Shown: piece by piece, positions 2,673-33,880 of the stretch | How the letters are laid out: each line of letters begins with the position of its first letter | Numbering within the stretch: the first letter of the stretch is position 1 | IMG/VR virus record: IMGVR_UViG_3300047408_000281 | Coordinates: 1 to 44,406 of that record | Length of the DNA: 44,406 nt | DNA from: a virus | Direction: 5' to 3' (one strand) | Notes under the pieces: model-generated | Told to the model about the DNA's origin: nothing | Databases searched by the model: none | The model's input: the letters and a program-made list of their open reading frames with translations, nothing else | Program-made: the position numbers and the translations under genes

Positions 2673-3257
2673 ATGGACCTGGGACGCCAGGAGCAGGAAA
2701 CCGCGATCAGGCTCAACCTGGGGTGCGGTCGGAACAAGGCGGAAGGCTTCGTGAACGTCGACAAATTCGGCGATCCGGACGTGCGCTGGGACCTGGAGCA
2801 GTTCCCGTGGCCCTGGCCGGACTCGAGCGTCGATGAAGTGAAGCTTATCCACGTTCTCGAGCACCTCGGGCAAGCTCCGGCGACCTTCATCGGGGTCATG
2901 CAGGAGCTCTACCGGGTGTGCCGCAACGGCGCCAGGGTGTTCGTGCACGTGCCGCACCCGCGCCACGACAACTTCCTCGGCGATCCCACGCACGTGCGCG
3001 TGGTAACGCCGCAGCTGCTGTCGCTCTTTTCGCGCAAGGAATGCGAGCGCTGGCAGGCCGAAGGGGCCGCGAACACGCCGCTCGCGCTCTACCACGGCGT
3101 CGATTTCGAGGTGCGCGACTGGGGTGTCGTGGTCGACCGCACGTACGAGGAGCTGCTCAGCCGCGGCGCCATGACGAAGGCACAGCTGCAGATCCTCATC
3201 CAGGAGCGCAACAACGTCGCGGTCGAGTATCACATCGAGCTCGAGGTGGTGAAATGA
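2673..3257 (+). CDS. SAM-dependent methyltransferase (type 11 like)
   Basis: The 194-residue protein has a class I SAM-binding motif LNLGCGRNK near residue 14. An acidic loop (NVDKFGDPDVRWD) and the post-motif VKLIHVLEHL follow, as in methyltransferase type 11 enzymes, which often act on sugars or small molecules. The ATG at 2673 is preceded by AGGGAGA; an upstream in-frame ATG lacks such a site. The stop overlaps the next ATG as ATGA, so the two genes are likely translationally coupled. It lies between terminase and head-tail genes, unusual for a packaging module, which points to a cargo cassette. The substrate is unknown. Confidence 0.8.
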   Translation: MDLGRQEQETAIRLNLGCGRNKAEGFVNVDKFGDPDVRWDLEQFPWPWPDSSVDEVKLIHVLEHLGQAPATFIGVMQELYRVCRNGARVFVHVPHPRHDNFLGDPTHVRVVTPQLLSLFSRKECERWQAEGAANTPLALYHGVDFEVRDWGVVVDRTYEELLSRGAMTKAQLQILIQERNNVAVEYHIELEVVK

Positions 3258-25999: not shown

Positions 26000-27574
26000 A
26001 TGCAAGTCGTCGCTGACCGCGTCAAGGAATCGAGCCTCTCCACCGGGACGGGAAACCTCCTGCTGGCTGGGGCCGTGGCTGGCTTCCGTGCGTTTGCCTC
26101 GCAGTGCGCCGTGGGTGATGCGTTCTACTACGCGATCGAGGCACAAACCGGCACGGGCATGCCGTCCGGCGAATGGGAAGTCGGCAGCGGCACCTACTCG
26201 GCGGCGAATACCTTGACGCGCTCACAAGTGCTGTCCTCGAGCAACGCGGGCGCGCTCGTGAATTTTTCGGCGGGCACGAAGCACGTCTGGATCGACGTAC
26301 CCGCTTACCAGCTAGCGGCATTGTCCAACAAGAACAGGCAAACCCTTGCTGTGCTCGGGGATTCGTTCATCCAGCGCAACATGGCGTCGCTCGCTTCCAA
26401 CGTCTACTCGACCCCAACTTGGGGAATCATCCTCCTCACCAACATGCTCCTGGGCAACGCCTTCGACATCGTGAACATCGATGGCGTGAGCGGCACCACG
26501 AGCGCATCGTTCCTGTCGCGCCTCGCCGCCTCCGTGCTCGCGTTCCGCCCGCGCTACGCGTACATCCAAGGCACGGTGAACGACATCCTCTCGGGAACGC
26601 CGCAGACGCTGGCGCAGTCGATCGCCAACTATTCGGCCATGTTCGCGCAGTGCAACGCGGCCGGGATCACGGTCATCACGAACACGGTCACGCCCTTCGC
26701 TGGATTGAACACTGCGGCCAAGAGGACGCAGTGGCTGCGATTCAATGCCTGGCTTATGAACGTTGCGCCAAGCTTGTACGACGTCATTGTCCTGAGGAAC
26801 GATTACCAGTACCTCGATCCGGCTGGGGTAACTTGCCAACCTAATGCGGCCTTCCTCGCGATTGATCCGACTCATCCTGCGGTTAGGGATTCGTTCACGC
26901 TGGCGCAAAGTAACGCGGCGACTCTTCGTGCCCTTGGCATCGGGGCGACTCTTCCGTCTCCGTTCTTGTCCGGCATTGGCGTTACTGGGTCCGAGGATGA
27001 TGCCATCCATCCCAATCCGATCAACTTCGGGGCGGCCGGCGTCAAGCAGGGCGCAGGCACCACCGGTACCGTTGCGACGACGATGTCGGTCGGGACCACC
27101 AGCAGCCTCGGGACAGCTGTGTGCAGCAAGGTGCCGCGCTCTGACGGGCCCGGCGAGTGGCAGCAGGTCGTCTACACGCCGTCAGCGGCTAACCAGATCT
27201 GCACGTACCAGAATTTCGGCGCGGCCATCGGGCTCGGCAACGCGCAGCCCGGCGACGTGGTTTCGTTCTTCCAGGAGTTTGAGATCGATTCGTCCACGCC
27301 TGCCGCGAATTTCCGCTGGGTGGGTGCCCAGATCACCTTTGTGGGCGGCGCGTACAACGCCGCGGCCTTCCCGATCAACTCCGGGTTCGATAATCTCGGC
27401 GGCCTCAGCGGCGTGAACCTGCGAGGCGTCATTCGGACGCCGCCCGTGGCGATCCCGGCCGGGACCACGGGCATGTTCCTGCTAGCCAACCTGCATGGCG
27501 GCGGTGCCGGGCTCCCGATTACCGCGCGCTACGGGCAGGCAGCGTTCCGGAACCTTTCTCGTCAAGGGTCGTAA
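26000..27574 (+). CDS. Tail fibre with SGNH/GDSL hydrolase domain
   Basis: The 524-residue protein starts like many tail fibres (ADRVKESSLSTGTGNLLLAGA...FYYAIEAQTGTGMPSGEWEVG). From about residue 113 it carries an SGNH hydrolase: block I GDSFIQRN (Ser122), block III GTVNDI (Asn194) and block V DPTHP (Asp289, His292). Residues 350-524 form a Thr/Gly-rich beta domain. Such enzymes remove acetyl groups from capsule or O-antigen during adsorption; that activity is inferred from the family. AAAGGA lies before the ATG. Confidence 0.85.
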   Translation: MQVVADRVKESSLSTGTGNLLLAGAVAGFRAFASQCAVGDAFYYAIEAQTGTGMPSGEWEVGSGTYSAANTLTRSQVLSSSNAGALVNFSAGTKHVWIDVPAYQLAALSNKNRQTLAVLGDSFIQRNMASLASNVYSTPTWGIILLTNMLLGNAFDIVNIDGVSGTTSASFLSRLAASVLAFRPRYAYIQGTVNDILSGTPQTLAQSIANYSAMFAQCNAAGITVITNTVTPFAGLNTAAKRTQWLRFNAWLMNVAPSLYDVIVLRNDYQYLDPAGVTCQPNAAFLAIDPTHPAVRDSFTLAQSNAATLRALGIGATLPSPFLSGIGVTGSEDDAIHPNPINFGAAGVKQGAGTTGTVATTMSVGTTSSLGTAVCSKVPRSDGPGEWQQVVYTPSAANQICTYQNFGAAIGLGNAQPGDVVSFFQEFEIDSSTPAANFRWVGAQITFVGGAYNAAAFPINSGFDNLGGLSGVNLRGVIRTPPVAIPAGTTGMFLLANLHGGGAGLPITARYGQAAFRNLSRQGS

Positions 27575-28622: not shown

Positions 28623-30205
28623 GGTGTTGTTCTCCCCTTGTGTTGGCATATGGTTCCAGGCGGTCGACGCAAACGGAGCCGCGGCACGACGAGCTCGGCC
28701 CCGTCCGCCCAGAATTTGTCCGGGTTAGCGTCTTGTCCCTGTGGGGACGCCACCTTAACCCGGCTAAGCGTCAGCCGGTACGTGATCCGGCCGCTTCTGG
28801 TGGCCGGATCGAGCTCGATCCGGCCTATCCAGGCGCGCAGGACGTCCTTCAGGGCGTCGCGATCGAGCTCGCCCATGTCCGAGGCCATCCGCTGCAGTAG
28901 CGCGGCTACAGCGGCCTCGTCGACGGCCTCAAGCACCTTCACGCGCTCGCCGGCGTCTTCGGCGCGCATGACCCTCTCGGCGGCGTCCTGCCGCTCGATC
29001 TCGAGCTCGTCCAGCCTGGCCAGCAGCGGCCGGGGCTCGCGGGCGTGCTCGACCAATCCCATCAGCTTCCTGATCCGCTTCTCCACGTCGGCCAAGGCAG
29101 CGCGAGCCGCCTCGAGCTCGCTCCGGTCCTGCAGGTTCTCCTGCAGGGCGCGGATTTCGCGCACAAACGCCTGCACGATCTCCGGCGAGCCCAGATCGAC
29201 CGGGAGCTGCTCCAGCACGGAGCGTTCGAGCAATGCCGCGTCGATCGAGCCGCCACGCGTGGTGTAGCAGTCGCGGTCGCCCCACCACGGCTTGCCGTCC
29301 GGGCGCACGAGCAGGCCCGAGAGCAGGTAGGTGCCGCCGCGGTTGCGCCGGGCCGCGTGGGCGCCCTTTTCAAGCCGGGTGAGAATGGCCTCTGCCTCCG
29401 CGTCGCTCACGAGCGCCTGGTGCGTCCCGCGCTGAATTTGCCATTCCGAACGAGGGCGCCGGCTGCCGCTGGCCTGGCTGTCCTTCGGGCGGCGCGTGTT
29501 CCAGGTGGTGTGGCCAGCGTAGGTTAGCGCGTTCCATTCGACATCGACAAGGCCGGTCCGGGTGATAGGCAGGCGCAATTGCCGCGCGATCGCGGAGCCG
29601 GCCTGGCCCGCAGATCGGGCGCGCAGGTAGGTGGCGATCGCCGGTGCTAGCGCCTCGTCGGGGACCAGGCGCGACTTCTCGACGGCGGCACCATTACGCA
29701 CCGCCGCGGTCGCCACGCGCTCGAAGCGATAGCCGATCGGCGCCCGCCCGCCGGCGCGGAAGCCGCGGCGCACGTTCTCGGCCATGCCGGCCAAGCCCTT
29801 CTCCCGGCTCATGAGGCTGTGCACCTCGTCCATGGCCTGGAAGGTGTTCTGCAGGATCACGGATGTGATCGGGTCGCTCTCCGGGATCCTCACGTAGAGG
29901 ATCGACACGCCGCGCTTCTTCGCCTCGTGCTGCAACGACTGGGCGATGTAGGTGCGCCTTGCGATGCGGCTTGTGTCGTAGGCGAGGATCACGTTCCATG
30001 CGCGGCCGCGGGCGGACAGGTCGCGCAGGAGCCGCTGGTAGCCGGGGCGTTGGTCGTCCTTGCCGGACTCGACGGCGTCGGCGTACTCACCGATGATCGG
30101 GAGGTTCTTCGCCTGGGCGAGCTCGGCCAACGCCCGCCGCTGGGCGTCGAGGGACACGTCTGCGCGGTCCTTGCTCGACCGTAGGTACAGGACTGCTGCT
30201 CGCAT
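28619..30205 (-). CDS. Large serine recombinase (integrase)
   Basis: The 528-residue protein has an N-terminal resolvase domain (YLRSSKD with catalytic Ser11; DQRPGYQRLLRDL; VILAYDTSRIAR), a recombinase domain (about 150-260; GGRAPIGYRF) and a C-terminal coiled coil (about 350-420, LEAARAALADVEKRI). It should catalyse integration and, with a directionality factor, excision. In the zinc-ribbon segment (YLLSGLLVRPDGKPWWGDRDCYTTRGG) the usual CxxC knuckle is missing, with only one Cys. GGAG is 8 bases before the ATG. No att core could be identified. Confidence 0.9.
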   Translation of the reverse strand: MRAAVLYLRSSKDRADVSLDAQRRALAELAQAKNLPIIGEYADAVESGKDDQRPGYQRLLRDLSARGRAWNVILAYDTSRIARRTYIAQSLQHEAKKRGVSILYVRIPESDPITSVILQNTFQAMDEVHSLMSREKGLAGMAENVRRGFRAGGRAPIGYRFERVATAAVRNGAAVEKSRLVPDEALAPAIATYLRARSAGQAGSAIARQLRLPITRTGLVDVEWNALTYAGHTTWNTRRPKDSQASGSRRPRSEWQIQRGTHQALVSDAEAEAILTRLEKGAHAARRNRGGTYLLSGLLVRPDGKPWWGDRDCYTTRGGSIDAALLERSVLEQLPVDLGSPEIVQAFVREIRALQENLQDRSELEAARAALADVEKRIRKLMGLVEHAREPRPLLARLDELEIERQDAAERVMRAEDAGERVKVLEAVDEAAVAALLQRMASDMGELDRDALKDVLRAWIGRIELDPATRSGRITYRLTLSRVKVASPQGQDANPDKFWADGAELVVPRLRLRRPPGTICQHKGRTTP

Positions 30206-30305
30206 TGAAGAGCTCCAGGAGGAACGCCGCGCCGGCCTTCGCGATCGCGTCGGCGTCGAGCTCGGTCGCGTTAACGCTCGTGATTGTGACCGTCAGTTTT
30301 TTCAT
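30087..30305 (-). CDS. Small hypothetical protein overlapping integrase start
   Basis: The frame begins MKKLTVTITSVNATELDADAIAKAGAAFLLELFNA, a credible start of a small alpha/beta protein, and then overlaps the first 119 bases of the integrase gene. The C-terminal part (QGPRRRVPRRPAAGVG) has the look of an out-of-frame reading of the integrase, so either the gene truly ends in an overlap or it has lost its original end. Another ATG lies two codons upstream. Confidence 0.4.
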   Translation of the reverse strand: MKKLTVTITSVNATELDADAIAKAGAAFLLELFNASSSPVPTVEQGPRRRVPRRPAAGVGRARPGEEPPDHR

Positions 30306-30320
30306 GGTCAAACCGGCGCC

Positions 30321-30551
30321 CTAGATGCCGTCCATCCGCTCATCCCACAGGCGGGCGCGCTCGGCGACCTCGCCGGGATCGAGGCTCGTGCGGTCGGCGA
30401 TCGCGAGGGCGCCCTGCAGGCCGTAGTGCGCCACCGTGAGACGCCGAATGGTTTCCGCGGCCTCGGCTAACAGTTCGCGATGCTGCGGCGCGCAGCGGCT
30501 GTCGTTCGCGGCCTCGACCAGGCGCTCGTTGAGAGGGGCTTTGCGTGCCAT
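30321..30551 (-). CDS. Hypothetical protein, 76 aa
   Basis: This helical protein starts MARKAPLNERLVEAAND, with a predicted helix (HRELLAEAAETIRRLTVAH) and an acidic end (PGEVAERARLWDERMDG). It fits between neighbours with gaps of 4 and 15 bases in the leftward operon. The family is not recognised; a DNA-binding or excision-related role is possible because of proximity to the integrase. Confidence 0.65.
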   Translation of the reverse strand: MARKAPLNERLVEAANDSRCAPQHRELLAEAAETIRRLTVAHYGLQGALAIADRTSLDPGEVAERARLWDERMDGI

Positions 30552-30555
30552 GGGG

Positions 30556-30828
30556 CTAAGCGTCGCGACGAGCGTCGGCCACTTGCCGCGCGCGTTGCAG
30601 GACGTCGCGAATATGTTTCCATCGCCGCTCGCGGGCGGCTCTCACGTACCGCTCCAGAAATTCGGGAGGAGGTGGCGGGATACGAAACCCCCGGTGCGAG
30701 GCGCCGCAGCGGCGACACTTCTCCGGGCCGCACCAACGGCCCCGGCCACCGAAGTCGCCGAAGTATGAGACGCCTGGCTCGCGCGGCAGCGGCTCGTAGT
30801 CGTGACCGAAGAAGCATAGCCAACTCAC
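30556..30828 (-). CDS. Small Cys-containing protein, 90 aa
   Basis: The GTG at 30828 overlaps the preceding stop (GTGA), with AGGGAG upstream. Beginning at SWLCFFGHDYEPLPREPGVSYFGD, the product has CGPEKCRRCG (residues 32-41), a zinc-knuckle-like site, and a basic helix at the end (RYVRAARERRWKHIRDVLQRAR). It may bind nucleic acid. A longer in-frame ATG at 30948 would overlap the neighbour heavily and is rejected. Confidence 0.65.
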   Translation of the reverse strand: MSWLCFFGHDYEPLPREPGVSYFGDFGGRGRWCGPEKCRRCGASHRGFRIPPPPPEFLERYVRAARERRWKHIRDVLQRARQVADARRDA

Positions 30829-31037
30829 CGCGAATCTCCCTGTGTATCGCACGGGTAGCGACAATCCGGGTGGATGCAGCGCGATGTCCCGAGGATGATC
30901 CACGGTCGCACCATCGAGCTTCCACACTTCGGGCAGATGCGTCCGCACCCTTCTCGGATCAGTCTCCCAAGTGGCGGCGCTGGCGGCGGCGGTGGTCGGC
31001 CGCCTTGGGGGAGTTCACCCGGTAGTTTCTGACTCAT
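30825..31037 (-). CDS. Zinc-ribbon protein, 70 aa
   Basis: Small protein with Cys pairs (CGRICPKC and CIHPDC, residues 31-60) typical of a zinc ribbon, preceded by a Pro-rich segment (PQGGRPPPPPAPP). It is the first gene after the reverse transcriptase in the leftward operon, with a 39-base gap. The function is not known. Confidence 0.65.
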   Translation of the reverse strand: MSQKLPGELPQGGRPPPPPAPPLGRLIREGCGRICPKCGSSMVRPWIILGTSRCIHPDCRYPCDTQGDSR

Positions 31038-31076
31038 GGCTTAAACGCCTTGCTCATAATTTCTCTTTTGTCCTCG

Positions 31077-32141
31077 TCAGCGAAATACCTTGGTGAGCGT
31101 GCGGTTTACAGCGTGCCCGCGGCGGCGCACCAGGCGCGCGAGCAGCTCGCGATCGTGGCGGTTGGCGGTGGCCTGGCGCATCAGGCCGAAGTAGCTATTC
31201 GCCGTCGCGAAGACGTCCGCCGGCGAGGCCTCGGCGGTGCGTCGCAGCGCCTCGCTGAACGTGCGCCGGCGGATGCGCCGGTGCCAAGGCTTGAGGACCT
31301 GGCCCACGAAGTCGATGCCGCGCGCGATCGGTTGCAGCACCGTCTTGCGGGGATTCAATTCGACCGCGAGCTCGCGCGGCAGGAAGGCCTCGATCTCCGC
31401 GAGGGTTGCCCGCAGCCACGCCGGCGACTCGTGCAGGAGCACGAAGTCATCTACATAGCGGACATAGCGACGCACGTGCAGCTGGTGCTTGGCGAACTGG
31501 TCGAGCCTGTCGAGGTAGATGTTGGCGAAGAACTGGCTCGATAGGTTGCCGATCGGAAGCCCCAAGTGCGCGGGTTGGTTCGTGAGGCGTTTGTGAGCGG
31601 GCACCAGGCGCAACTGCGACGCCGGGCAGCGCATCTCGACATCGGTCCGTGGATCGTGGAAGAGTATCTGCAGCGTGAGCTCGCGCCACCACGGCTCGTG
31701 GATCCGTGGCTCGAGGAGGCCGGCGAGGATGCGCTTGTCGATCGCCACGAAGAAGTTGGCGACGTCGCACTTCAGGTACCAGCCCGCGCGCGACCAGTTG
31801 GCGGTGAGGCTGCGCACGTGGTGCTCCAGGCGGTGCGCCGCGTAGAGCGTCCCGCGGCCGCGGATGCATGCACACGTGTCGACGCTGAACGAGCGCTCGA
31901 AGCGCGGCCCGATGCGGTTGTAGAGCATGTGATGCACGATGCGATCGCGGAAGGCGGCCGCCCACACCTCGCGCGGCTTGGGCCGCGTGACCACGAAGCA
32001 GATCGACCGGCCCGGCGTGTAGCTGCCGCTGGCCAGCTCGTCGAAGAGCCCGACCAGGTTGCGCTCGAGGTGCATCTCGAAGGCGAGCGCGCTCTTCGTG
32101 TTGCGCTTGTTGCGGCGGCAGTCGTAGTACGCCGCCACCAA
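31077..32141 (-). CDS. DGR reverse transcriptase (RT), start uncertain
   Basis: Retroelement RT with motifs in order: DRIVHHMLYNRIG (domain 2a type), WYLKCDVANFFVAIDK (domain 3, first catalytic Asp), GLPIGNLSSQFFANIYLDRLD (the DGR-type IGxxxSQ signature, about 31532-31552) and RYVDDFVLLHE (YVDD active site, about 31446-31457), then the domain 5-7 segment ARGIDFVGQVLKP. The conserved part begins at FDELVAAYYD. I give TTG 32141 as the nearest usable start; the frame is open to ATG 32495, running through the template repeat. There is no Shine-Dalgarno match for 32141, so the true start is unresolved. Its role is adenine-mutagenising cDNA synthesis from the TR RNA, with Avd. Confidence 0.9.
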   Translation of the reverse strand: MVAAYYDCRRNKRNTKSALAFEMHLERNLVGLFDELASGSYTPGRSICFVVTRPKPREVWAAAFRDRIVHHMLYNRIGPRFERSFSVDTCACIRGRGTLYAAHRLEHHVRSLTANWSRAGWYLKCDVANFFVAIDKRILAGLLEPRIHEPWWRELTLQILFHDPRTDVEMRCPASQLRLVPAHKRLTNQPAHLGLPIGNLSSQFFANIYLDRLDQFAKHQLHVRRYVRYVDDFVLLHESPAWLRATLAEIEAFLPRELAVELNPRKTVLQPIARGIDFVGQVLKPWHRRIRRRTFSEALRRTAEASPADVFATANSYFGLMRQATANRHDRELLARLVRRRGHAVNRTLTKVFR

Positions 32142-32180
32142 CTCATCGAAGGAAGGTCCAGCATGGTCTACCGCGTCTCG

Positions 32181-32289
32181 ATCTGCGGACGGCCCGGGCC
32201 CGGAGCTCGTTGTCCTTGTGGTTGTTGTTCTGGTTGCCGTTGTTGAAGTTCTGGTACCAGGCGTAGGCCTCGTTGCCGGCGTACTGCGT
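32181..32289 (-). repeat. DGR template repeat (TR)
   Basis: The 109-bp TR lies between RT and Avd. On the coding sense (minus strand) it contains 33 adenines and nine AAC codons, and would read as TQYAGNEAYAWYQNFNNG and on to NELRARAVRR in the VR frame. Its 3' end (sense) is the GC-rich CTCCGGGCCCGGGCCGTCCG, identical in both VRs and the candidate initiation-of-mutagenic-homing region. The TR is expected to be transcribed with the flanking 32142-32458 sequence as the DGR RNA. Confidence 0.95.
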
Positions 32290-32458
32290 CCATTCGTGCT
32301 ATCCACGTCGACCCGCCGAAGGCCTCGGCCGATCAGCGGATCGACTGCGCCGGACCGGGCGCGGCCGGAGCCGCCGATGTCCGTGGCGCGCATGGCGGTG
32401 GCCTCGTGGGCCAGCGGCACGACCAGATTGTTTCCCACGGGCATGATCGCCTTGACGG
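32290..32458 (-). other. Spacer between Avd and TR
   Basis: The 169 bases on the upstream side of the TR hold no clear gene. The RT frame stays open through them (Arg/Thr/Gly-rich reading from ATG 32495), but composition suggests this is the 5' part of the DGR template RNA, not protein. No terminator is seen. Confidence 0.5.
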
Positions 32459-32815
32459 TCATGCGGCAGGGGACTTCGCGGAGTACTTGCGCCACCCGGT
32501 GGCCTGCTTGCCGATCACGGCCGTGAGCTCGATTGCGCGTGCGTGATGCTTCACGGCGATGAGGCTCATGTCCTTCGCGAGCCTGAAAAGCAGCTCAGCG
32601 ACCTGGAGGCGCTCGAGCAGTCGATCGAGGTGCGGCACCTTGTCCGCAGCAGCGTTCGCGCGGTAGATGAGCACCACGAGCTCGAGGCACTCCTCGCGTA
32701 CCTTGGCGCCCATGCTGGCCTTGAAGTCGCGCGGCATGTGTCGCGTGATCTCCGTGGCCAGCACGAGCAGCTGGTACGTGACCTGGTAGATCGGCAGGGT
32801 GGAGTGAAGCGCCAT
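32459..32815 (-). CDS. avd: Avd-like DGR accessory protein
   Basis: The 118-residue basic protein is the right size for Avd, the pentameric four-helix-bundle partner that binds RT and the template RNA. Its sequence is all helix (PIYQVTYQLLVLATEITRHM; MGAKVREECLELVVLIYRAN; HLDRLLERLQVAELLFRLAKDM; HARAIELTAVIGKQATGWRK), with the family-like YDLLxxIxRxxxxFPRxxK pattern seen here as TYQLLVLATEITRHMPRDFK. It lies between VR target gene and TR as in classical DGRs. Confidence 0.9.
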   Translation of the reverse strand: MALHSTLPIYQVTYQLLVLATEITRHMPRDFKASMGAKVREECLELVVLIYRANAAADKVPHLDRLLERLQVAELLFRLAKDMSLIAVKHHARAIELTAVIGKQATGWRKYSAKSPAA

Positions 32816-32843
32816 GCTGGAAAAGGGCTAAATCACTGAATGG

Positions 32844-33239
32844 TCAAATGGGCAATCTGCGGACGGCCCGGGCCCGGAGCACGCTGCCCTTGCGGCCGTA
32901 GTACTGGGTGCCGTTGGTGAAGTACTGGAACCAGGCGTAGGCCGCGTAGCCGGCGACGCTCTCGGCGCTCCAGTACCACTCCTTTTCGAAGAGCTCGGGG
33001 ACGTTGGCGAAGCACAGCGCGAGATCGCGGCGTGTCGGCAGCTCGCCGCCCACGGACTCGGCCCACTGCCGCGCTTCTTCCCACGTCATGCGTTCCTTCG
33101 GCGGCTCCTGCTCGAGCACCTCGAGGGCGTAGTCGTCGCCGTCCTCGGGCCCGCGGCCGATGCCCGCGTAGATGCCGTGCAGACCGAGCGCGCCGATCGC
33201 ATCCCGCTCCTTCGTGAGCGAATCGCCTTGCACTTTCAT
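32844..33239 (-). CDS. DGR variable protein 2 (DUF1566-like)
   Basis: The 131-residue protein starts at ATG 33239 with AAGGAGG upstream (spacing 6); longer in-frame starts are in the neighbouring gene. WEEARQWAESVGGELPTRRDLALCF and the C-terminal WYWSAESVAGYAAYAWFQYF are typical of DUF1566/C-type-lectin-like proteins. The last 34 or so residues lie in VR2, ending RARAVRRLPI. Variable side chains are exposed on the ligand-binding face in this fold. It lacks a visible signal peptide. It is the second of two adjacent DGR targets. Confidence 0.9.
   Translation of the reverse strand: MKVQGDSLTKERDAIGALGLHGIYAGIGRGPEDGDDYALEVLEQEPPKERMTWEEARQWAESVGGELPTRRDLALCFANVPELFEKEWYWSAESVAGYAAYAWFQYFTNGTQYYGRKGSVLRARAVRRLPI
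32855..32956 (-). repeat. DGR variable repeat 2 (VR2)
   Basis: The 102-bp repeat aligns without gaps to TR 32181-32282. I count 15 differences, all at TR adenines (T on the plus strand). The next base mismatch on the upstream side is not adenine-linked, marking the end of the repeat. Mutated codons change Asn to Tyr, Thr, Gly or Ser. Confidence 0.95.
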
Positions 33240-33277
33240 GGACTGCCTCCTTGCGAAATGGGTGAATGGATGAAGGG

Positions 33278-33880
33278 TCAAATCTTCAATCTGCGGACGG
33301 CCCGGGCCCGGAGCTCGCCGTCCTTGCGGGCGTTGCTCTGGCCGCCGCTGAAGAAGCCCTGGCACCAGGCGTAGGCCCCGCCGCCGGCGGACTGCGTGGA
33401 ACTCCAGTACCACTCGGCCTCGAAGGCTTCGGCGCCGCGCGCGCGGAACGCGTCGTGCGTGGTCTGCCCGGGCGAGTCGGGCATGTAGGCGTAGCCCACC
33501 GGCACGCTGCTGGGGTTGTCGCCGCGGTAGCAGTAGTTCTCGGCGGTGGTCGGCTTGAATGCGCGGTAGAGGATCTCCAGCTCGTCGCGCGAGGGCAGGT
33601 ACCAGTCGTCGAAGCCGCCGATGCGCAGGCCTCGCGCCCACTTGGCGAGGTCGCTGCCCGCCGTGTCGAACGCAAGCGTGTTCGCATAGCCGTCGCAGAA
33701 GCTGAGCGCATCGGCCACGCGGCCGCCGCTTTCGTTCAGCTGCTCCTCCGCCTCGCCCTCACTCTTCGGCGCCACGATGAGCACGTGCTCGATGCCGCCT
33801 ACGAGGATGCGACCGGCATAGAAGCCGCCGGCGAACGCGGTGCCGGGAATGGTGGGGATTTCGGTGGTCGTGGTGTCCAT
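33278..33880 (-). CDS. DGR variable protein 1 (DUF1566-like)
   Basis: The 200-residue protein has AAGGAG 7 bases before ATG 33880; an in-frame ATG at 33904 forms an ATGA overlap with the upstream gene and is an alternative. After a Thr-rich start it has GTAFAGGFYAGRILVGG, then a DUF1566 segment (FCDGYANTLAFDTAGSD...FDDWYLPSRDELEILYRAF) and ends in AYAWCQGFFSGGQSNARKDG, ELRARAVRRLKI within VR1. The C-terminal C-type-lectin fold is the known display scaffold of DGR targets. No signal peptide is seen. Confidence 0.92.
   Translation of the reverse strand: MDTTTTEIPTIPGTAFAGGFYAGRILVGGIEHVLIVAPKSEGEAEEQLNESGGRVADALSFCDGYANTLAFDTAGSDLAKWARGLRIGGFDDWYLPSRDELEILYRAFKPTTAENYCYRGDNPSSVPVGYAYMPDSPGQTTHDAFRARGAEAFEAEWYWSSTQSAGGGAYAWCQGFFSGGQSNARKDGELRARAVRRLKI
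33289..33397 (-). repeat. DGR variable repeat 1 (VR1)
   Basis: The 109-bp repeat aligns gap-free to TR 32181-32289. I count 18 differences, all 18 at TR adenines. The changes differ from those in VR2, so the two repeats were mutagenised separately. Examples: TR Asn codons become Gly, Phe, Ser and Ala; one TR Tyr becomes Cys. Confidence 0.95.

Follow-up and report, generated by a model that had tools for sequence, protein, structure and literature searches.

The locus considered here raises the question of whether a phage can rewrite two of its genes from a single template, and of what part is played in this by the RNA that lies just ahead of that template. The locus extends from position 33880 down to 31077 on the minus strand of the IMG/VR virus record IMGVR_UViG_3300047408_000281, whose 44,406 bp were analyzed in full (hereafter, the window) and represent a phage genome, with a lambda-like terminase, portal and head decoration protein, a tape measure protein, a serine integrase, a ParB-like protein and a replicative helicase/primase. 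A previous reading, made from the sequence alone, had proposed that this is a diversity-generating retroelement (DGR) composed of a template repeat (TR), two variable repeats (VR1 and VR2), a reverse transcriptase (RT) and an Avd-like gene. On the evidence set out below, it is very probably a functional DGR of a temperate, lambda-like phage, which rewrites VR1 and VR2 and whose template RNA includes both the structured RNA known as RT-15 and a helix joining this RNA to the end of the TR. In the direction of the minus strand, the order is target 1 (with VR1), target 2 (with VR2), avd, TR and RT. The features are the following (the starts of the VR1 gene, 33880, and of the VR2 gene, 33239, are refined positions):

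33278..33880, minus strand: target gene 1, 200 amino acids, Lcl_C/DUF1566 (Pfam PF07603), predicted C-type lectin fold (AlphaFold2), VR1 at its 3′ end
33289..33397, minus strand: VR1, 18 substitutions relative to the TR, all at TR adenines; 14 further differences in a second contig (L004), all at TR adenines
32844..33239, minus strand: target gene 2, 131 amino acids, Lcl_C-like (Pfam Lcl_C below cut-off), predicted C-type lectin fold (AlphaFold2), VR2 at its 3′ end
32855..32956, minus strand: VR2, 102 bp, 15 substitutions relative to the TR, all at TR adenines
32459..32815, minus strand: avd, 118 amino acids (Pfam bAvd, E 7e-14; PHROG 3206, E 4.2e-32)
32287..32475, minus strand: RT-15 structured RNA (RF03018), putative 5′ leader of the template RNA (166.5 bits, E 1.6e-41)
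32424..32430, minus strand: RT-15 arm of the putative long-range helix, 5′-CAAUCUG-3′, pairing with 32179-32185 (covariation in relatives)
32181..32289, minus strand: TR, 109 bp with 33 A, identical in contig L004
32179..32185, minus strand: TR 3′-end arm of the putative long-range helix, 5′-CAGAUCG-3′, pairing with 32424..32430 (covariation in relatives)
31077..32141, minus strand: conserved core of the DGR reverse transcriptase, 354 amino acids (PHROG 1423, E 7e-118; BPP-1 bRT, PDB 8ub7, E 3e-36)

One Template and Two Targets

The key evidence comes from the comparison of the repeats. Adenine-specific mutagenesis is the hallmark of DGRs and, when the TR was realigned with the two VRs, the 18 substitutions of VR1 and the 15 of VR2 (the latter over 102 bp containing 31 A) all fell at template adenines, a pattern that would arise under random placement in the repeat with a probability of about 6e-12 for VR1 and of the order of 5e-10 for VR2. 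The count of 33 out of 33 coincides with that of the sequence-only reading, and no substitution at another base was found inside the aligned repeats; position 32180, just outside them at the 3′ edge of the TR, is a C beside the TR and a T beside both VRs. The 109-bp TR and the two repeats at the 3′ ends of adjacent genes, also described in that reading, were recovered at the same coordinates, and a search of the window with the TR gave three matches only, the TR itself included, that is, no extra VR. The same bias was found in relatives, which were collected from IMG/VR and GTDB genomes and include about 100 close relatives of the cassette: with all of them pooled, VRs differed from their TRs at 2128 of 5034 A sites versus 145 of 11434 other sites.

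Profile searches revealed the homologies proposed for the RT and for Avd, an accessory protein that accompanies most phage DGRs. The RT matches PHROG 1423 and the bRT protein of phage BPP-1, and the motifs IGNLSSQ and YVDD, read directly in its translation, satisfy the DGR-type signatures [ILV]GxxxSQ and YxDD; the avd product matches the Pfam bAvd family and PHROG 3206. As for the targets, which had been described as DUF1566-like, the VR1 protein scores above the Pfam cut-off for Lcl_C (2.8e-11), whereas the VR2 protein falls below it (2.8e-6), although its predicted fold agrees with this assignment. The AlphaFold2 models of the VR1 and VR2 proteins (pLDDT 91 and 88, respectively) both find their best PDB match in the C-terminal domain of Legionella Lcl (8q4e), with E-values of 1e-4 for VR1, albeit with poor global superposition (TM 0.44), and 9e-5 for VR2, whose further matches are mostly C-type lectins. 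Both target proteins are, therefore, predicted to adopt a C-type lectin fold and, judging from these models, they may act as binding proteins, possibly directed to host structures. Taken together, the A-site changes in two adjacent genes and the phage genes of the window support the proposal of a phage DGR with one template and two targets.

Recent Diversification of the Variable Repeats

Evidence for activity of the cassette came from contig L004, the single further contig of the same phage found in IMG/VR. It is 4,182 bp long, covers positions 29530-33711 of the window and differs from it at 14 positions, all of them in VR1 and at template adenines (5e-9 by chance within VR1 alone), while the TR, VR2, avd, RT and flanks are identical. 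At several of the 14 sites, the base of L004 is present neither in the TR nor in the VR1 of the window. This distribution shows that VR1 was recently diversified in the wild. The earlier claim that the phage diversifies both of its targets is, thus, borne out directly for VR1; for VR2 it is suggested by the TR/VR2 pattern and by relatives in which both VRs vary.

The identity of VR2 in the window and L004 tells against this part of the interpretation, as its activity is seen only indirectly, and it could be argued that VR1 is the only active target of this phage, VR2 being a fixed or slowly changing copy. Such a notion is compatible with the location of all 14 differences in VR1, but this comes from a single comparison of one contig pair. 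In addition, VR2 differs from the TR at 15 A sites and no others, in an intact gene, and in relatives it changes about as much as VR1: in the pair formed by L030 and L033, whose TRs are identical and whose RTs are 4% divergent, VR1 differs at 15 A sites and at no other site, and VR2 at 13 A sites and one other. We consider it unlikely, on these grounds, that VR1 is the only active target, and VR2 is probably active in the window phage as well. That the differences with L004 arose by assembly error or from a collapsed read mixture is hardly credible: both sequences come from metagenomes or virus collections, in which short repeats can be mis-assembled, but the rest of the 4,182 bp shows no differences, the 14 changes fall on template adenines only, and several of the L004 bases are absent from both the TR and the VR1 of the window.

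A Known Kind of Cassette

Cassettes with two targets of the DUF1566/Lcl_C type were already known, and the retroelement itself is ordinary. Among the 77 loci with RT identity of at least 60%, two VRs were counted in about 60 and three in 13, so that a pair of VRs for each TR is the norm in this clade, while the loci with more distant RTs (46-51% identity; L079, L080 and L081-L083) have one target. The hosts of the close relatives, where known, are almost all Burkholderiales and Pseudomonas. DGRs with multiple VRs and DUF1566 targets have long been known (DiGReF, PMC3521204; MetaCSST, PMC6642488), and they share with the window cassette the use of one TR for several VRs in DUF1566 genes; the RNA leader described below and its pairing with the TR, in contrast, are not described in these two papers, as far as they were read. 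The DGR of Burkholderia phage Magia is a close counterpart, with 68% RT identity, the same gene order, two VRs beside avd, RT-15 RNA and an RT frame that passes through the TR, although this phage has a tyrosine integrase instead of a serine integrase. The genome announcement of Magia (PMC7883833) names genes 47 and 57 as DGR targets and does not mention RT-15 RNA. The gene next to avd in that phage (gene 46 by its position; L084, 3888-4352), annotated there as hypothetical and not as a target, carries a VR with A-only differences.

Within the window genome, the cassette is located in the integrase/ParB arm and is not adjacent to the tail genes. Between the latter and the integrase, at positions 26000-27574 of the plus strand, lies a gene for a lipase-like protein, as identified by PHROG (4.5e-26).

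RT-15 RNA Between avd and the Template

The 170 nt separating avd from the TR proved to correspond to the Rfam family RF03018, RT-15 RNA, which extends from the last avd codons to the 5′ edge of the TR. The match is well above the gathering threshold (166.5 versus 82 bits), covers the full length of the model (positions 1-192) and keeps nearly all of its base pairs. The description of this RNA reportedly goes back to Weinberg in 2017. The window element is a full-length, above-threshold member of the family, but the Rfam entry describes only an RT-associated small RNA, without reference to DGRs, and models the AAUCUG strand discussed below as unpaired. A literature search for RT-15 RNA or RF03018 gave, among the papers listed, none with either name, although an earlier link between RT-15 and DGRs may exist.

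The association of this RNA with DGRs is consistent. RT-15 was present in all 11 clade loci tested and in 50 of 50 further viral records, and absent from the three outgroup loci. When about 790 genomes of Burkholderiales and Pseudomonadales, together with six known genomes, were searched with the RNA model, 17 RT-15 RNAs scored above threshold, ten of them new relative to the RT search, and each of the 17 lay downstream of avd, was followed by a TR whose first base falls within about 7 nt of the RT-15 3′ end, and was accompanied by one or more VRs and a DGR RT; none of the four sub-threshold matches had avd, TR, VR or DGR RT. In an RNAalifold analysis of 27 sequences, 50 pairs were predicted in RT-15, 37 of them with compensatory changes, and the alifold z-score was -15, compared with -2.6 for the region 3′ of the TR and -3.9 for an RT coding control. 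No conserved structure beyond this control was, thus, found 3′ of the TR, and the idea of a 3′ spacer RNA concealed within the RT gene was discarded; divergence at four-fold sites is slightly lower at the RT 5′ end (0.26-0.27) than elsewhere (0.27-0.40), which is not decisive.

The L078 record (IMGVR 2609459740_000002) and a prophage of Polaromonas sp. OV174 (L105 and L123) also brought to light a phage genome with apparently two RT-15/DGR cassettes, about 31.5 kb apart and on opposite strands. The second cassette of OV174 (L123) has RT, avd, TR and a VR, and for that of the L078 record the RT-15 match alone was seen.

A Long-Range Helix Joining RT-15 to the End of the Template

A clue to the role of RT-15 is provided by its AAUCUG strand, which is highly conserved. 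When all ungapped hexamer columns of RT-15 were screened against the TR 3′ end and the linker that follows it, the top rank among 9,230 combinations went to AAUCUG paired with CAGAUU, the terminal hexamer of the TR, and the neighboring registers lengthened this helix outward. Across 63 dereplicated loci, helix positions 2, 6 and 7 lay above every one of 2,000 shuffles, and for position 9 a single shuffle was the exception. Position 7, which lies outside the TR, is paired in 92% of cases versus 43% after shuffling, with GC, UA, CG and AU pairs all occurring. Over the whole helix, 86.9% of cells are paired (75.8% when shuffled), seven of the nine pairs show double changes, and the covariation value is 0.299 versus 0.098, a level reached in none of 500 shuffles. 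Sliding the partner by one to three columns abolished the pairing. Comparative evidence, namely covariation in relatives, shows that the RT-15 strand and the TR 3′ end form a long-range helix.

Several observations weigh on the other side. The helix is weak in the window (five pairs, one mismatch and one pair, that is, six of seven positions), and the shuffle tests ignore relatedness, which inflates them, although the variety of pair types that diverse phages show at the same positions argues for real pairing despite relatedness. Furthermore, 40 of 106 loci have an imperfect TR hexamer, yet 70 of the 86 VRs of these loci match RT-15 exactly, so RT-15 may pair with the VR instead of, or besides, the TR.

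This last fact also lends some weight to a different explanation, in which a conserved DNA element at the TR and VR 3′ ends, analogous to the initiation of mutagenic homing (IMH) element, or the coding of the residues V-R-R, rather than RNA pairing, would account for the complementarity. A GC-rich run and a CAGAT(T/C) hexamer were seen at these 3′ ends; no stem-loop at the VR 3′ end was noted by eye, no systematic search for one having been made. The VRs share the hexamer and often fit RT-15 better than the TR does, and 6 nt is a short stretch. However, the helix does not stop at the TR but enters the linker, in which position 7 shows covariation with four types of pair, and the complementarity does not survive a displacement of one to three columns. 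We consider this explanation unlikely, and pairing between RNA strands the better account of the data.

The RT Reading Frame and a Possible Regulatory Role

The position of RT-15 between avd and the RT raises the alternative that it regulates RT translation or transcription within the operon mRNA and takes no part in template function. The RT frame of the window is open upstream, in frame through the TR and RT-15 (31077-32495, minus strand), to an ATG at 32462 that shares bases with the avd stop codon (ATGA). In the window, the stretch from the TR to the conserved RT core is devoid of start codons except for TTG/GTG at the first two core codons, and the nearest in-frame starts ahead of these are upstream of the TR, the ATG overlapping the avd stop among them; of 105 loci, about half have the nearest ATG of the frame within the TR. 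An RT frame whose 5′ end is overlapped by the TR already characterizes a class, DiGReF group 3 (PMC3521204). An RT protein extended through the TR was nevertheless rejected: upstream of the TR, substitutions show no codon periodicity (29/36/35%), which indicates that the conservation of this region is that of an RNA and not of a protein, whereas 65% of substitutions in the RT core are at third positions and, inside the TR, the excess fits the VR frame.

With so few starts available near the core, control of the RT by RNA structure is conceivable. Against it, in 17 of 17 RNA-model matches RT-15 ends where the TR begins, and the free strand of RT-15 covaries with the TR 3′ end. Moreover, in L074 and L110, RT-15 and the TR stay together even though a PAPS-reductase-like gene parts both from the RT, which suggests that RT-15 and the TR, rather than the TR and the RT, form the functional unit. 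A purely regulatory role is, in our opinion, decidedly unlikely, and RT-15 is better regarded as a probable component of the template RNA. The inserted gene of L074 and L110 (5165-5929) was identified by eye, and the DGR of these loci, with three VRs, is apparently intact.

Comparison with the BPP-1 Retroelement

The biochemistry of DGRs rests mainly on that of phage BPP-1 (mtd-avd-TR-brt), with which the window cassette shares the target-avd-TR-RT order, bRT- and Avd-type proteins, a C-type lectin target with the VR at the 3′ end of its gene, and adenine-specific change. The BPP-1 element has, however, one target, the tail protein Mtd, instead of two, and its avd abuts the TR, whereas in the window RT-15 fills the gap 5′ of the TR. 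Conversely, BPP-1 carries a structured RNA 3′ of the TR, between it and brt (RF03022, Phage_DGR RNA, at 2750-2882, with the TR at 2887-3020), while the window has about 37 nt only from the TR to the RT core and gave no match to RF03022 in an Rfam model search. On present evidence, derived from sequence comparison, the clade seems to display a variant DGR layout, inverse to that of BPP-1, with the structured RNA 5′ and not 3′ of the TR. According to a study that reconstituted the BPP-1 system in E. coli (PMC12875486), the spacer 3′ of its TR recruits bRT-Avd and primes the synthesis of cDNA; by analogy, RT-15 and its helix may take over this role in template recognition or priming. In a Paenibacillus DGR (L114, 2084-2216), an RT-14 RNA (RF02921), with a borderline score, lies immediately 3′ of the TR, which raises the possibility that further RT-n families of Rfam are DGR RNAs too.

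A Model for the Cassette and Its Significance

All these observations can be integrated in a model in which a transcript spanning avd, RT-15, TR and RT would supply the template. RT-15 would fold into a multi-helix RNA whose joining strand, AAUCUG, would pair with the TR 3′ end (CAGAU...); the TR would thereby become a closed loop, with the start point of the cDNA beside the folded RNA. The RT, together with Avd, would then copy the TR, misincorporating opposite A, and the resulting cDNA would replace VR1 or VR2 at the ends of the two adjacent lectin-fold genes. A more specific version, which we put forward tentatively, as a possibility we would not favor at present, is that RT-15 DGRs start cDNA synthesis from the 5′ leader, the RT-15 strand on the TR 3′ end priming it or positioning the primer, so that the template would be a closed loop with its recognition RNA 5′, the inverse of BPP-1. 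If this were true, RT-15 would be the defining RNA of such DGRs, and the VR 3′ ends that fit RT-15 where the TR does not would have been written from, or be recognized by, RT-15.

The model would provide a likely function for an Rfam family whose entry lacks a DGR description. The arrangement avd-RT-15-TR would also make a better annotation rule, able to detect such DGRs without an RT. Finally, the comparison shows a large clade of proteobacterial phage DGRs with the structured RNA 5′ rather than 3′ of the template, and such a second layout, with a covarying contact at the template end, makes the general requirements for RNA contacts in DGRs testable.

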